Of a stretch of DNA of 45,339 nucleotides, positions 6,566 through 13,593 are shown piece after piece; position 1 is the first letter of the stretch, and each line of letters begins with the position of its first letter. This DNA is from Thermoplasmatota archaeon (GTDB lineage Archaea; Thermoplasmatota; Thermoplasmata; Thermoplasmatales; GCA-001856825): positions 12,932 to 58,270 of the forward strand of contig JAMCUN010000002.1 in assembly GCA_023381415.1 (NCBI GenBank), written 5' to 3'. The notes beneath the pieces are model-generated. The model worked only from the letters and a program-made list of their open reading frames with translations. It was not told the DNA's origin and ran no database searches. The position numbers and the translations under genes are program-made.

Positions 6566-8650
6566 TCAAGGGTTTCCAGGCAAACCGGAAGAAGCTCCTT
6601 TCCAGGCCCTATCTATTATTCCGTTGAGTGTCAGCGAGTTGAGAACAACAGATGTAGAACTGAGTCCCATTGCCAGGGCAGAAAGCATAGGAAGGATAGT
6701 GTAAATGGAGAATCCAAGGGAGGGTACTAAGACTCCTCCTGCAACAGGTATCAAAACTGAGTTGTAGCCTACCGCCCAGGCTATATTCTGCTTTATTTTA
6801 GAAACTGTCTTCAGTCCCAGTATCCTGACCATAACCAGCTGCCTCAGATCGTTGCTAAGGAGAATTATGTCTCCACTCTCCCTCGCAACATCCGACCCAG
6901 ACCCCATTGCGATTCCCACATCGGCTGTCTCCAGCGCTATGCTATCATTGATTCCATCGCCGACAAACATCACGTAATCCCCTTTCTCCTGGTAATCAAT
7001 AACAATTTTCGATTTATCTTCAGGCATAGCCTCAGAAAAAACATCATCGATTCGAAGCATTTCTGCTATCCTCTTTCCCTCACTTTTGGAATCACCGGTG
7101 ACAATCGCAGTCCTGATGCCCATCTCCCTAAATTTCGATATCACCCAGGGTGCATTATCCCTCAGTTTGTAGGACATTGCGATGGTCCCGATCTCCTCCC
7201 CATCTGACATCACAGATATGGTGGAGGACCCGCCCTTAGTAGAACGCTTAATTCTTACTTCCCTTCCATCAACTCTTCCCATAATTCCAGTTCCTGGAAG
7301 CTCTTCAATGCCTTCCCCTTTCCTTGCCGCAAGATTCTTCTTCCGTGCCTCTTGGCATATTGCCCTTGCAATTGGGTGATTAGAGTAAGATTCTACGGAA
7401 TAGGCGAGCAGAAGCACCTCGTCCCTAGTGTGGTTCCCATGTGCCGTTATATCAGATATGATAGGCACAGGTTCAGTGAGCGTTCCAGTCTTGTCGAAAA
7501 TGACCCTTGAGACCTTTGAAAGTCTGTCCAGAGAACTTGGATTCTTGATTACGATCCCATTTCTAGAGGCGTGGCTGGAAGATATGAGCAGTGTGATGGG
7601 TCCAGCAAGGCCGATGGCACACGGACATGCTATGACCACAACTGAAACGAAGGCGAGGATTGAGATCTCCACTGGAATCGTGCTTCCAATGCTCCTCAGG
7701 TAAAAATACCAGAAGAGGCTGGACGCAGTTGCCGCAGCCAGAACGATCGGTACGAACACAGATGAAAATACATCAGCAATCTTCTGGACCTTTGCTCTAC
7801 CAGATACTGCTCTCTGAATCAGCTCATAAATTTGATTGACGGTGCTGTCCTTGCCTATCCTACCGACCTCTACAGTCAATGCTCCGTTCAGGTTCAGGGT
7901 TCCAGATGTGACTGGACTCCCCTCCACCTTCAGTACCGGTTCCTGCTCACCGGTAAGCATTGATTCATCAACCTCACTCTTGCCTCCACGAACTGTCCCA
8001 TCTGCGGGAATGATTTCTCCTGCCTTTACCAATATCCTGTCTCCCTTTCTTATTTCGTCAGTTTGCCTTACGGTTGTGTTTCCTCCTTCATCAATAAGAA
8101 GGACGGTCTGCGGAAGTAATGAAACAAGGCGTCCTGCTGCCCTGTTTGCCCTTGCCTTGGTCAGGCCCTCCGTGTAGGCACCAGTGAGTATGAGAGTAAT
8201 TATGAACGCGGATGCATCAAAGAAGACTTCCTGACCGTGTGAGCTGAATTTTAAGGTCACATATGTGGAATAAACGAATGCAGTAACGGTCCCTAGGGAG
8301 ACAAGAACATCCATGTTTCCCATTCTACCTCTGATCGCATGGTATGCGCCTCTGTAGAATCCGAATCCAGAATACAACTGAACAGGCAAAGCTAGGATCA
8401 ACAGGATAACGTTCCTTGTCAAGAACCCAATGGAGAAATTGCTGGAGAGCGAATATGTGAGTACTATTATCGGTATAGAAAGCGCCCAGGCCACCGCAAG
8501 TCTACGCTTGAGTATCGCACTCTCAGTCTCTGGAGATTCAAACCTTTCCTGGCATGTCTTTGAACAGAAATAATAGGTCTGGCCGTCTACGATTGAATGT
8601 AAGGATCCCTCCTCTGGAACGAACATTCCACATACCGGATCTGTAGGCAT
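6566..8650 (-). CDS. copA: Copper-exporting P1B-type ATPase with N-terminal YHS domain
   Basis: Integral membrane pump of 694 residues that should expel Cu+ at the expense of ATP. A cysteine-bearing YHS/TRASH-like domain (PVCGMF at 5-10, YYFCSKTCQERF at 26-37) replaces the common HMA domain. Then come the actuator loop (TGE at 233-235), CPC in the sixth membrane helix (342-344), the phosphorylation site DKTGT (D386), HP (425-426) and GDGINDS (565-571). NIAWAVGYN (622-630) and MGLSS (661-665), in the last two helices, match the Cu+-specific P1B-1 subgroup. A 46-residue YHS protein lies 12 bases upstream, with a divergent TRASH regulator beyond. This is the copper-resistance arrangement known in acidophilic archaea such as Ferroplasma and Sulfolobus. 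Confidence 0.93.
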   Translation of the reverse strand: MPTDPVCGMFVPEEGSLHSIVDGQTYYFCSKTCQERFESPETESAILKRRLAVAWALSIPIIVLTYSLSSNFSIGFLTRNVILLILALPVQLYSGFGFYRGAYHAIRGRMGNMDVLVSLGTVTAFVYSTYVTLKFSSHGQEVFFDASAFIITLILTGAYTEGLTKARANRAAGRLVSLLPQTVLLIDEGGNTTVRQTDEIRKGDRILVKAGEIIPADGTVRGGKSEVDESMLTGEQEPVLKVEGSPVTSGTLNLNGALTVEVGRIGKDSTVNQIYELIQRAVSGRAKVQKIADVFSSVFVPIVLAAATASSLFWYFYLRSIGSTIPVEISILAFVSVVVIACPCAIGLAGPITLLISSSHASRNGIVIKNPSSLDRLSKVSRVIFDKTGTLTEPVPIISDITAHGNHTRDEVLLLAYSVESYSNHPIARAICQEARKKNLAARKGEGIEELPGTGIMGRVDGREVRIKRSTKGGSSTISVMSDGEEIGTIAMSYKLRDNAPWVISKFREMGIRTAIVTGDSKSEGKRIAEMLRIDDVFSEAMPEDKSKIVIDYQEKGDYVMFVGDGINDSIALETADVGIAMGSGSDVARESGDIILLSNDLRQLVMVRILGLKTVSKIKQNIAWAVGYNSVLIPVAGGVLVPSLGFSIYTILPMLSALAMGLSSTSVVLNSLTLNGIIDRAWKGASSGLPGNP

Positions 8651-8662
8651 GGCCCGGTCGCT

Positions 8663-8803
8663 CTATCTCGTGTATTTGATGGGATTCCTGTCAAACTCTT
8701 TTTTGCAGTGCTCACTGCAGAAATAATAGGTCTTCCCCTTAAATTCTGACCGTATATTCGTATCTTCTTTTACTTTCATCCCGCAAATAACATCGATCGC
8801 CAT
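8663..8803 (-). CDS. 46-residue YHS-domain metal-binding protein, likely copper chaperone
   Basis: Small gene from ATG 8803 to TAG 8663, ending 12 bases before copA. The product starts MAIDVICGMKVKEDT and contains TYYFCSEHCKKEF, so it carries the three cysteines of a YHS/TRASH treble-clef-like module (C7, and C-x-x-x-C near residues 29-33). It closely resembles the N-terminal domain of the adjacent ATPase (PVCGM...TYYFCSKTCQERF), suggesting duplication. In related archaeal cop operons a small metal-binding protein between regulator and ATPase acts as a copper carrier; I infer the same role. There is no Shine-Dalgarno; the start is about 26 bases from the left arm of the palindrome at 8825-8855. 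Confidence 0.85.
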   Translation of the reverse strand: MAIDVICGMKVKEDTNIRSEFKGKTYYFCSEHCKKEFDRNPIKYTR

Positions 8804-8824
8804 GCCAGTAAATCGGAAATGGTT

Positions 8825-8855
8825 ACTTAACATTAATCTATCATAAATGTTAAGT
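8825..8855. promoter_or_regulatory. Palindromic operator overlapping both divergent copper promoters
   Basis: Perfect 10-bp arms ACTTAACATT (8825-8834) and AATGTTAAGT (8846-8855), separated by 11 bases. The left arm is centred about 26 bases from the YHS-protein start (8803) and the right arm about 28 bases from the regulator start (8879). Each arm thus lies where TBP should bind for a leaderless transcript. A dimeric regulator binding here could control both directions at once. The repeat and distances are seen directly; the regulatory role is inference. Confidence 0.7.
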
Positions 8856-8878
8856 TATTCAATGCCTTTATTTTCAAT

Positions 8879-9406
8879 ATGAAAAGAAACCTTTCAGAAA
8901 TAGAACAGAGGATTGTTATGCTTCTCAGGGCAAATTCCAGAATGAGCATCACTGATATTGCAAGGGAACTTGGTACGAGCAGAGTCACTGCAAAAAGGGC
9001 CTTTGATTCCCTGATACAGACCGGGAGAATAAAGAAGTTCACAGTTATTCTAGAAGAAGACGAGAGGGAGATGATACTAGTTCAGACCAACGACCCTTCA
9101 AAATTTCCAGATGAAATGACAATTGAGAAGTTCCATCTCATCGACAATTCGTATATAGTCGTCCTCTACTACGAGGACCTGACCAAAATAAAGGGCGCTC
9201 ACATAACTTCAGTACAGGTTGCCGTACGGAGGGAACAGAATGATCCTCCGGTGATAGTAGAGAAGATCCACTGTGATTACTGTGGGAATGAGATCAACAG
9301 TAGACCCATCGCCGTTCAGATAAACAACAGGATCTACTATGCGTGCTGTCCTAACTGTGAAAGAGACCTTAAGAAAAGGAGTAAGACCCTGGGAGTAGAG
9401 GCCTAA
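8879..9406 (+). CDS. Copper-responsive HTH regulator with C-terminal TRASH domain
   Basis: 175 residues in two parts. Residues 1-60 form an Lrp/AsnC-type winged helix-turn-helix (SEIEQRIVMLLRANSRMSI, then the recognition helix region GTSRVTAKRAFDSLIQTGRI). Residues ~129-165 form a TRASH metal-sensing domain with four cysteines: HCDYCGNEI and YYACCPNCERDL. The middle (~60-125) resembles a small ligand-type alpha/beta domain. Known archaeal relatives (CopT/CopR types in Sulfolobus, CopY in Ferroplasma) sit next to a small YHS/metal-binding protein and a copper ATPase, as here, and control them. The divergent layout and shared palindrome suggest autoregulation and control of copA. Activator versus repressor cannot be decided from sequence. 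Confidence 0.88.
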   Translation: MKRNLSEIEQRIVMLLRANSRMSITDIARELGTSRVTAKRAFDSLIQTGRIKKFTVILEEDEREMILVQTNDPSKFPDEMTIEKFHLIDNSYIVVLYYEDLTKIKGAHITSVQVAVRREQNDPPVIVEKIHCDYCGNEINSRPIAVQINNRIYYACCPNCERDLKKRSKTLGVEA

Positions 9407-9420
9407 GAGCCAGGCTCTTA
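9404..9420 (+). terminator. Hairpin containing the regulator stop codon
   Basis: TAAGAGCC (9404-9411), A, GGCTCTTA (9413-9420): a perfect 8-bp inverted repeat whose first three bases are the TAA stop of the TRASH regulator. The drawn loop of one base means the top pairs must open. A TTTT follows at 9423-9426. Probably a 3'-end signal. Confidence 0.55.
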
Positions 9421-9560
9421 CTGTTTTGAAAATGAATAATGTTTGCAAAGTGTAAAGTTTTGAAGTCTGTGAATATCATTTCCTTGCAAAGGGTTAATAT
9501 CTGATAGATGTGATCTTGGACAATCGAATGCTGGGATGAAGCGGACGAGGTTGAATAACC

Positions 9561-11075: not shown

Positions 11076-12062
11076 ATGCTCGAACGAATGGTAATGACGA
11101 AGGCACCTCTAAGGATAACGTTTGTGGGTGGAGGTACAGATCTCCCATTCTATTATGAAAACAGGGACTATGGTGCAGTCGTATCGGCAGCAATCAACAA
11201 ATACATTTATGTTACAGTTAACAGGAAGTTTGACAGAAAGATAAGGGTCAGCTATTCAAAGACGGAAATCGTGGACCATATAGATGAAATTCAGCACCCT
11301 ACCGTAAGGGAGTCTCTCAGACTCCTAAACCTGACAGAGGGCATAGAAATCGTCAGCATTTCAGATATTCCTTCAAATGGAACTGGACTGGGCTCAAGCA
11401 GCACTTTCCTCGTGAGCCTCCTTCACGCTCTTCACAGCTACAGGGGGGAGTTGGTAGACTCAGAGACACTTGCGAAGGAAGCAGTACTTATTGAGCGGGA
11501 GGTCCTGAAGGAACCTGGAGGAAAACAGGACCAGTACGCGGCGGCCTTTGGGAACCTGAACCTTATGAAATTCTTTGGAAATGGAACAGTGAGCCTGACT
11601 CCAGTTACCTCACACGTAAACAACATAAGGAAGGTTGAGGATTCGCTTCTTCTTCTCTATACCGGAAAGGGCAGAAGCTCTTCAGGCATTCATGAGGATC
11701 AGGTCGTGAATTCAAAGGCCAAAATGGATGCCTACGATGCAATGAAAGAGCTGACCGGACCAACCTTCAAGGCAATCAGCGAAGGTGATGTTGAAACCCT
11801 CGGTAGACTTGTGCACGAAAACTGGTCCCTCAAGAGGAACCTCTCAAAGAAGATTAGTGACGAGTGGATCGATCAGATGTACCAAAAGGCCATGGAGCTA
11901 GGAGCTTACGGAGGAAAGATCGTAGGAGCAGGTGGTGGAGGATTCATGTTGCTGGTAGCTGAGCCGGCGAAGCATGAACTGATAACGAAATCACTGGGCC
12001 TGGAGAGGACATATTTCAGATTTACCCATACTGGAAGCAGGGTGATATTTGTTGGAGAATGA
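11076..12062 (+). CDS. hddA: D-glycero-D-manno-heptose 7-phosphate kinase, GHMP family
   Basis: 328-residue sugar kinase of the GHMP superfamily. The N-terminal motif MTKAPLRITFVGGGTDLPFYY is characteristic of the HddA/fucokinase-like subgroup. The ATP loop is PSNGTGLGSSSTFLVSLLHAL (about residues 99-119) and the C-terminal motif is KIVGAGGGGFMLLV. In GDP-heptose synthesis HddA phosphorylates heptose 7-phosphate at C1. That role is supported by gmhA, which overlaps its 3' end by 14 bases, and by the hddC-like gene facing it. Whether M1 or the in-frame ATG six codons later (MTKAPLRI) is used is unclear. The product probably feeds glycosylation of surface proteins or lipids, given the glycosyltransferases downstream. 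Confidence 0.88.
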   Translation: MLERMVMTKAPLRITFVGGGTDLPFYYENRDYGAVVSAAINKYIYVTVNRKFDRKIRVSYSKTEIVDHIDEIQHPTVRESLRLLNLTEGIEIVSISDIPSNGTGLGSSSTFLVSLLHALHSYRGELVDSETLAKEAVLIEREVLKEPGGKQDQYAAAFGNLNLMKFFGNGTVSLTPVTSHVNNIRKVEDSLLLLYTGKGRSSSGIHEDQVVNSKAKMDAYDAMKELTGPTFKAISEGDVETLGRLVHENWSLKRNLSKKISDEWIDQMYQKAMELGAYGGKIVGAGGGGFMLLVAEPAKHELITKSLGLERTYFRFTHTGSRVIFVGE

Positions 12063-12621
12063 TGTTTCAGATCTTGAGAAGTACATAGAGAGTGGAATGG
12101 AGGCTAGAAGGTCAATTAACATCTTGGAGATAATGGAAGTTGCCAATATTCTCTACAAAAGGCTAGAGTCAGGGGGAAAACTCATAACATTTGGTAACGG
12201 AGGGTCCGCGGCAGATGCACAGCATTTTGCTGCAGAACTATCCGGTAGATTTCTGAAGGAAAGGAGGTCACTGCCCGCGATAGCCTTGACTACTAACACA
12301 TCTTCCTTGACCGCTATAGGCAATGACTATGATTATTCTTCAGTTTTCTCGAGGCAGATTGAGGGCCTTTGCACGCCGAATGATTTTGTCGTTGGTATCT
12401 CCACGTCTGGGAACTCAAAGAACGTTATTGAAGGTTTGAACAGGGCAAAGGGAATAGGGGCGTACACGTTGGCGCTGACGGGGAAGGATGGAGGAAAGGT
12501 CAAAAACGTTGCAGATAAATGCATTAAGGTCGGATCAGATAGTACTCCGATAATTCAAGAAGTCCACATAGCAATAATCCACATGATATGCTACGAGCTT
12601 GATAAGAAGCTGTTACGATAG
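12049..12621 (+). CDS. gmhA: Phosphoheptose isomerase (sedoheptulose 7-phosphate isomerase)
   Basis: 190-residue SIS-fold enzyme predicted to convert sedoheptulose 7-phosphate to D-glycero-D-manno-heptose 7-phosphate, the substrate of the preceding kinase. FGNGGSAADAQHFAAELSGR is the GmhA signature and contains the His and Glu typical of its metal site. GISTSGNSKNVIEGL is the SIS phosphosugar loop. IQEVHIAIIHMICYELD is the C-terminal helix with the second active-site His. The start is a TTG: 12049 or the adjacent 12052 give almost the same protein. Both lie inside the hddA 3' end, so translation is probably coupled. Standard length for the family. Confidence 0.92.
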   Translation: MLENDVSDLEKYIESGMEARRSINILEIMEVANILYKRLESGGKLITFGNGGSAADAQHFAAELSGRFLKERRSLPAIALTTNTSSLTAIGNDYDYSSVFSRQIEGLCTPNDFVVGISTSGNSKNVIEGLNRAKGIGAYTLALTGKDGGKVKNVADKCIKVGSDSTPIIQEVHIAIIHMICYELDKKLLR

Positions 12622-12657
12622 TTCCAGGCTAAGTGATTGTCTTTTGCAATCCGTATG

Positions 12658-13593
12658 TCAACTCCAAGAAGAGTTTTCAATAGTCAGTCCTCCCGCCAAT
12701 GAAAATCTCGATTCCTTCAATGCTCGTACTTCACTACGCCCTTCGATCTCACCTTCATCGTCCTTTACTAACGTTCTCCCGCTGATAGCGATTTTCCCCT
12801 TGCTCACCTTAAGCTGACCCCTCCCTGAAACAACGATAGTTCTATTCTCGAATGCGCAGCACTCTTGTATGTTTCCATTCAGATCAACATGGCCAAAGTC
12901 GTAGTCTTTGCGGTATTCGTAGACCTTCCTTACCTCTTCGTAATCCTTAACACTATCCACTCCCTTCCAGTATCCATTGAATTTCAGGGCCCTGATTCTG
13001 TTCTCTTTTAGAAGGGTTTGGAAAAGTGTCCTCTCTATATCTTTCTCCTCGTATTCCCTATTGAGATAATCTTTGATACCAGGTCGCAGATAATAGCAAC
13101 CTATGTTTACATAGTGGTTCAATACAGGTTTCTCCAGGAAGCCTGTTACGTATCCGTTGCGGATGGATACAATTCCGAACGGGCTTATCATTTTTGCTAC
13201 TACCATGCTCATAAGTCCAGTATTTTCCAAGGAATAGGAAATGAATCTTCTCAGATCCAGATCGCAAAGAGTGTCCCCATTTCTCAGAATCACGTCGGCA
13301 TTCACGTGATTGTATAGGTTCCTGAGAGCCCATAGGGTACCCATCGGCTTTTCTTCCTTCAGATATGTGATCTTTACTCCTTCCCAAGAGGGACCGTATC
13401 TTTCCTCTAATAATTCGCCCCTGTAACCTGAAAGGATGTACACCTCTTCCACTCCAGAGGACTTGAATTCACGCAACTGCCTGTCGAGTATCACATAGTT
13501 GCCCCTCAGAGACAAGAGCGTCTTCGGAACATCTTTAGATACAGATTGCATTCTTTTTCCGTACCCTCCTGCGAAAAGAGCACCTACAGTCAT
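12658..13593 (-). CDS. hddC: Nucleotidyltransferase, probable heptose 1-phosphate guanylyltransferase, with C-terminal extension
   Basis: NDP-sugar pyrophosphorylase fold. The nucleotide loop is GALFAGGYGKRM, with KDVPKTLL as the substrate-proximal motif, LRNGDTLCDLDL as the metal-binding Asp strand, FLEKP, and NIGCYYLRPGI. It would join GTP and heptose 1-phosphate to form GDP-heptose; the specificity is inferred from hddA and gmhA next door, and a mannose- or glucose-1-phosphate enzyme is the alternative. The usual catalytic domain ends near residue 235. About 75 further residues (GHVDLNGNIQECCAFENRTI onwards) form short alternating strands suggestive of a left-handed beta helix or beta sandwich. 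It is convergent with gmhA with a 36-base gap. Confidence 0.75.
   Translation of the reverse strand: MTVGALFAGGYGKRMQSVSKDVPKTLLSLRGNYVILDRQLREFKSSGVEEVYILSGYRGELLEERYGPSWEGVKITYLKEEKPMGTLWALRNLYNHVNADVILRNGDTLCDLDLRRFISYSLENTGLMSMVVAKMISPFGIVSIRNGYVTGFLEKPVLNHYVNIGCYYLRPGIKDYLNREYEEKDIERTLFQTLLKENRIRALKFNGYWKGVDSVKDYEEVRKVYEYRKDYDFGHVDLNGNIQECCAFENRTIVVSGRGQLKVSKGKIAISGRTLVKDDEGEIEGRSEVRALKESRFSLAGGLTIENSSWS

Follow-up and report, generated by a model that had tools for sequence, protein, structure and literature searches.

Conserved CopR-type sites, rather than a perfect inverted repeat, as the probable operator of a divergent copper promoter in a Thermoplasmatota archaeon

In the window analyzed here, a stretch of 45,339 nt from a Thermoplasmatota genome, a copper ATPase gene and a small YHS gene diverge from a regulator gene across a 75-bp spacer that contains a perfect 10-bp inverted repeat. 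The first-pass annotation read the repeat as an operator through which one binding event could act on both promoters, and we asked whether the repeat has this role or whether other sequences in the spacer are better candidates for recognition by the regulator. The genes and the spacer between them are as follows.

6566..8650, minus strand: CopA, copper-translocating P-type ATPase with an N-terminal YHS domain (TIGR01511, 484.3 bits; cut-off 397)
8663..8803, minus strand: small YHS protein, 46 aa (PF04945, 63.2 bits; cut-off 30.3)
8804..8878: divergent spacer, 75 bp
8879..9406, plus strand: regulator with an AsnC-type helix-turn-helix (HTH) and a C-terminal archaeal TRASH domain, of the CopR/CopT/CopY type (Pfam and HTH structure match)

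CopA also scored above the cut-offs of PF00122, PF00702, and PF04945, and the 46-aa YHS protein is likely a metallochaperone. The regulator displays the N-terminal HTH and C-terminal TRASH domain of archaeal CopR/CopT/CopY proteins (PF08394, 66.3 bits; PF13404, 27.7 bits; cut-off 27 for each), its cysteines C132, C135, C156/157, and C160 were kept in 17/17 aligned sequences, and, as is typical of that group, a copper P-type ATPase gene and a small chaperone gene adjoin it. Its HTH is of the AsnC type found in Lrp/AsnC proteins: the regulator profile matched LrpA (1i1g, E = 7.8e-8), and the predicted HTH matched Lrp structures with Z = 8.9 and 1.4 Å over 50 residues, the structure model (pLDDT 77.7, pTM 0.48) being of use for the HTH only. 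No RAM family was found among the Pfam hits of the regulator; few structure matches to the model extended past residues 3–59, and no RAM-type structure was among them, in a region that such matches barely test. Residues 7–114 also aligned to NCBIfam LysM, with a score of 50 bits that falls short of the family cut-off (180). A terminator-like inverted repeat lies at the regulator stop codon (9404–9420). Elsewhere in the window, the genes at 11076–13593 resemble heptose 7-phosphate kinase, GmhA (sedoheptulose 7-phosphate isomerase), and a sugar-phosphate nucleotidyltransferase, all under their curated NCBIfam cut-offs, and a possible reading of this stretch is an archaeal heptose pathway.

The two arms of the inverted repeat, both located by repeat search, lie within the spacer.

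8825..8834: left arm, ACTTAACATT, at the TATA-region position of the YHS-copA promoter, 22–31 nt upstream of the YHS start
8846..8855: right arm, AATGTTAAGT, which holds the right half of site A (described below)

The repeat is exact, with 11 nt between its arms, and when extended the arms pair at 12/13 positions. The distance from arm center to start codon is about 26 nt for YHS (8803) and about 28 nt for the regulator (8879), just as the annotation had described, and the YHS start itself is backed by relatives with the same spacer length (26/35 non-redundant loci). The annotation had also assumed leaderless messages, which was weakly borne out: across 90 ORF starts of the window's own genome, chosen mechanically, a TATA-like score peaked at −24.5 with a value of 3.27 against 2.92 ± 0.14, or 2.5 sd over the mean. 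Bacterial sigma-70 promoters are not expected in archaea, and a search for them found none.

How unusual the repeat appears depends on the frame in which it is counted. Dinucleotide shuffles of the 75-bp spacer yielded a perfect repeat of such length in only 11 of 3000 cases. Across the whole window, perfect arms of at least 10 bp with a loop of at most 11 nt were seen once against 0.47 expected, a number reached in 20/60 shuffles, and with a loop of at most 25 nt they were seen three times against 0.98 expected (7/60 shuffles). The repeat is thus unusual within its spacer and ordinary, at about chance level, across 45 kb. It is present once in the 1.42-Mb assembly, and it forms a good fold as single-stranded DNA (z = −5.3); a hairpin function was nevertheless set aside, since arm pairing is not kept in relatives.

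The relatives were drawn from a search for the regulator in 117 genomes of the order, 113 of which contained a match at E ≤ 0.001, though often a distant or partial one. We studied 70 loci (30 from the search and 40 hand-picked from the match list, with weaker matches left out), and a script found a divergent YHS and/or copA gene at 48 of them. Filtering out any spacer that shared more than 80% identity with a retained one removed 13 rows and left 35 loci, including that of the window. The other 22 loci, those with no detected divergent copA, comprised three closer orthologues (L011, L017, and L025; 43–55% identical) and 19 more distant TRASH regulators (28–37% identical), among them the second copy in the window's own genome. 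In a scan of named genomes the nearest relative was an I-plasma MAG (Thermoplasmatales), followed by other Thermoplasmata MAGs, and in a 300-genome sample of the class all 43 profile matches at E ≤ 1e-20 fell in the same order.

The length of the divergent spacer is rigid. The YHS start lies 74–75 bp from the regulator start in 26 of the 35 loci, 22 as called by script and four (L019, L027, L028, and L047) upon re-reading, where the script had chosen a later Met. Among the remaining nine, the YHS start lies at 76 bp in one and at 274 bp in another, while a copA start lies at 101–128 bp in six and at 231 bp in one.

Comparison of the spacer in related genomes, which the annotation had put forward as a check, went against the repeat. 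Among 34 non-redundant relatives, in-register arm pairing averaged 3.53 of 10 positions, within the range of 2.59–4.00 obtained from shifted controls in which one arm was displaced by −6 to +6, and none of the 34 kept at least 8 of 10 pairs. The best-pairing relatives were L003 with seven pairs, L043 with six, and L002 and L042 with five each. Two of these, L002 and L003, belong to the same genus as the window; their left arms keep ACTTAA and their right arms keep AATGTTAA, and the only pairing common to both is that of TTAA with TTAA plus an end pair, the CAT/ATG pairs not being found in both. The TTAA shared by the two arms is self-complementary, and columns −51 to −48, in the left-arm region, are A/T-rich in the 35 loci.

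These results bear on the reading in which the repeat is itself the operator, with one dimer or tetramer on half-sites 21 bp (two turns) apart that would cover both TATA positions. Its perfection and its rarity among spacer shuffles speak for this reading, as do its half-sites, TTAACA and TGTTAA, which share the form of the CopR motif halves considered below, and the pairing of five and seven positions in the same-genus relatives, above the mean of the others. The pairing is unconserved outside the window, however, and the same-genus relatives keep the arms separately and not as pairs; together with the chance-level count over the window, this makes the reading improbable. As a conserved operator, we rejected the repeat on the register test with shifted controls and the window chance counts.

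A different part of the spacer proved to be conserved. Most spacer columns in the 35 loci were near background, and the strongest exceptions were two blocks upstream of the regulator, −36 to −25 and −9 to −1, the second with C at −4 in 33/35 loci, A at −3 in 33/35, and T at −1 in 28/35. We scanned the loci with the 15-bp binding motif of Pyrococcus furiosus CopR, TTNNCAWWWTGNNAA, as given in PMC7830388, and found two peaks, at center −1 (mean 9.51 of 11 specified positions) and at center −32 (mean 8.09); outside both peaks no mean exceeded 6.23, and 200 shuffle rounds gave at most 5.54. In the window, the two places correspond to the following sites.

8839..8853, plus strand: site A, upstream CopR-type site, TATCATAAATGTTAA, 8/11 specified positions, center −33 from the regulator start
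8871..8885, plus strand: site B, CopR-type site across the regulator start codon, TTTTCAATATGAAAA, 11/11, center −1

The divergent promoter thus carries the CopR motif, exactly at 8871–8885 and in two conserved places across the 35 loci. Site B scores at least 9 in 31/35 loci, and site A (center −33/−32) scores at least 8 in 28/35, compared with 33 of 665 control position pairs in the same spacers. Both sites score at least 8 in 27 loci, with a spacing of 31 bp in 17, 32 bp in nine, and 34 bp in one; the eight loci that lack such scores at both sites count against a two-site model. In the window itself site A is a poor, weak copy (8/11), and it scores 9/11 in L002 and L003. The weak site A of the window and the lack of a RAM family among the Pfam hits of the regulator also speak against the model.

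Site B is the only exact match to the CopR motif in the 45-kb window, where matches with up to two mismatches showed no enrichment (52 against 49.6 expected). A one-mismatch motif (TTTGCAAAGTGTAAA) occurs at 9442–9456, between the regulator and the next downstream gene. The exact motif occurs at eight places in the window's own genome, compared with two for a backwards control; inspected by eye in this 81% complete assembly, the other seven places lie mostly within ORFs, and none is beside a recognized copper gene. That no further target was recognized counts against the model, although a wider regulon may exist given the incomplete assembly.

The agreement between the two sites also emerged from a column test that made no use of the motif. 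The non-coding part of site B best matched the spacer at an offset of 31, and at −32 lay both the best fit of its reverse complement and the strongest dyad of the column profile, a result that stands without the window's genus. Judged by sequence, sites A and B appear to be one kind of element. On the copA side, near −63, where a further phased site would lie, the motif score showed no peak in the 35 loci. Columns −66/−65 (8813–8814 in the window), which lie 10–11 nt upstream of the YHS start, are A in 27/35 and T in 28/35 loci, respectively, the window itself having T and C; they are possibly a melting element of the copA promoter.

Given that the letters at −9 to −1 abut a start codon, with T at −1 in most loci, they might, rather than forming a regulator site, act as an initiator or as a signal for translation. 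Site B does gain TG from the start codon, a gain shared by control starts, yet 29 YHS starts averaged a motif score of 6.76 and 34 copA starts one of 7.06, and the mean was 6.77 for the 22 loci lacking a divergent copA and 5.87 for 90 ORF starts of the window's own genome, the regulator included. The CA at −4/−3, present at 32/35 regulator starts, was found at 2/29 YHS starts, 2/34 copA starts, 3/22 loci without a divergent copA, and 11/90 own-genome ORF starts, and the three of 22 were exactly the closer orthologues L011, L017, and L025, with none among the 19 distant TRASH regulators. The recurrence of the same pattern as a dyad at −32 is likewise not what such a signal would produce, and we consider this explanation to have little chance of being right.

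The sites appear to follow the regulator rather than its neighbor, because L011, whose divergent gene is not copA, keeps both (10/11 and 10/11). By eye, the divergent gene of L011 and L025 encodes a membrane protein resembling DoxX/DoxD, and a protein similar to this neighbor is found in the window's own genome (L109:10302-10865). That genome also encodes a second TRASH regulator, about 35% identical, on contig C19 (L109:6987-7514, minus strand; the L061 gene), and this copy lacks both copper sites. By their translations, inspected by eye, the genes divergent from it look like those for cysteine synthase and a cystathionine lyase-type enzyme, and this TRASH copy may regulate sulfur metabolism.

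The inverted repeat itself looks like a coincidence in which the YHS-copA TATA region (left arm) matches the right half of site A, since the right arm is the site A right half and the left arm falls at the expected copA TATA position. By this account the copA TATA region would mirror the half-site by chance, in the window's genome alone. It is also conceivable that this lineage acquired the left arm as an additional half-site, which would reinforce a site A that has decayed. For this one could cite the weakness of site A in the window (8/11) and in L002 and L003 (9/11) and the presence of ACTTAA in all three; a TATA region at that position would keep ACTTAA too, however, and only three genomes are comparable, so that we hold this genus-specific addition to be unlikely. 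A striking repeat in one genome can mislead where relatives go uncompared.

An operator is very probably present in the divergent spacer, and we favor, with fairly good confidence, the reading that the spacer is a two-site operator of the adjacent CopR-type regulator and the inverted repeat a by-product. Regulator dimers would bind sites A and B on one face of the DNA, their centers 31–32 bp (three helical turns) apart. Site A would cover the BRE/TATA zone of the regulator promoter, and site B the regulator start codon together with the point where transcription presumably begins, and because the sites overlie these elements, binding would be expected to repress the regulator gene. Site A lies 36–50 nt upstream of the YHS start, which would place it directly upstream of the copA BRE, at a position that is predicted and with a motif that matches at only 8/11, while the copA TATA region would be left free. 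On sensing copper through its TRASH domain, the regulator would then increase transcription of copA. Our inference is that the regulator represses its own gene by way of both sites; that it activates YHS-copA from site A is less certain.

The annotation was right that a TRASH regulator accompanies a divergent copper promoter and that the right arm lies in the regulator TATA zone; its reading of the repeat as the operator found no support. Nor would a single binding event be expected to act equally on both promoters, since the two conserved sites (8839–8853 and 8871–8885) are asymmetric, both falling on the regulator promoter or start codon, with the copA TATA region free. More broadly, the copper regulators of this order could share an operator of two rigidly phased sites, the second surrounding their own start codon, such that a tetramer locks the regulator gene shut while the copA promoter is free to be activated, a proposal for and against which we would place about equal weight. 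If true, the spacer would act as a one-way switch, with the three-turn spacing and the usual 74–75-bp length kept while the other spacer sequence drifted.

The literature searched yielded no operator for a copper cluster of the same order and no description of this two-site layout, whereas the CopR-type operator is a kind already known. TRASH regulators accompany a small YHS/TRASH chaperone and a P-type ATPase in the CopT/CopR systems with copMA of Sulfolobus/Saccharolobus and in copYZ of Ferroplasma. The window shares this gene content, a likeness by genes alone. The bacterial CopY operator, TACANNTGTA, likewise has TACA/TGTA halves and a copper ATPase target; its halves are separated by two bases instead of three, and the bacterial repressor is unmatched by the window's regulator, so we took the likeness as coincidence.

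A review of archaeal Lrp regulators puts the length of their sites at 13–17 bp and the distance between them at two or three helical turns. The sites described here resemble those of Lrp-type autoregulators such as BarR and Ss-LrpB, which are 15-bp semipalindromic sites phased at two or three turns in own-gene or divergent promoters. Unlike the window's regulator, BarR and Ss-LrpB have no TRASH domain, and BarR uses three to five sites (PMC2995911, PMC10201364).

The closest likeness is to copR/copA of P. furiosus (PMC7830388), where an HTH and TRASH regulator also diverges from a copper ATPase, with the same 15-bp motif placed directly upstream of the copA BRE (predicted in our case) so as to block the regulator's own promoter. 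On that motif, CopR activated copA and repressed copR in vitro, an effect that its authors link to start-site distance, with both sides stimulated at about 122 bp and copR blocked at 96 bp (PMC7830388). The same paper cites the CopR of T. onnurineus, at a similar promoter, as a repressor of both copA and copR, which by analogy would count against the proposed activation of copA. The start sites in P. furiosus are 96 bp apart (PMC7830388), whereas the start codons in the window are about 75 bp apart, and the window has a second motif across the regulator start codon, three turns from the first, which may be a further difference. A binding motif measured in Pyrococcus is in this way extended to a distant archaeal order with a precise layout, and, with the published work split on whether CopR activates or represses copA, a two-site geometry fixed across the order makes the question testable site by site.
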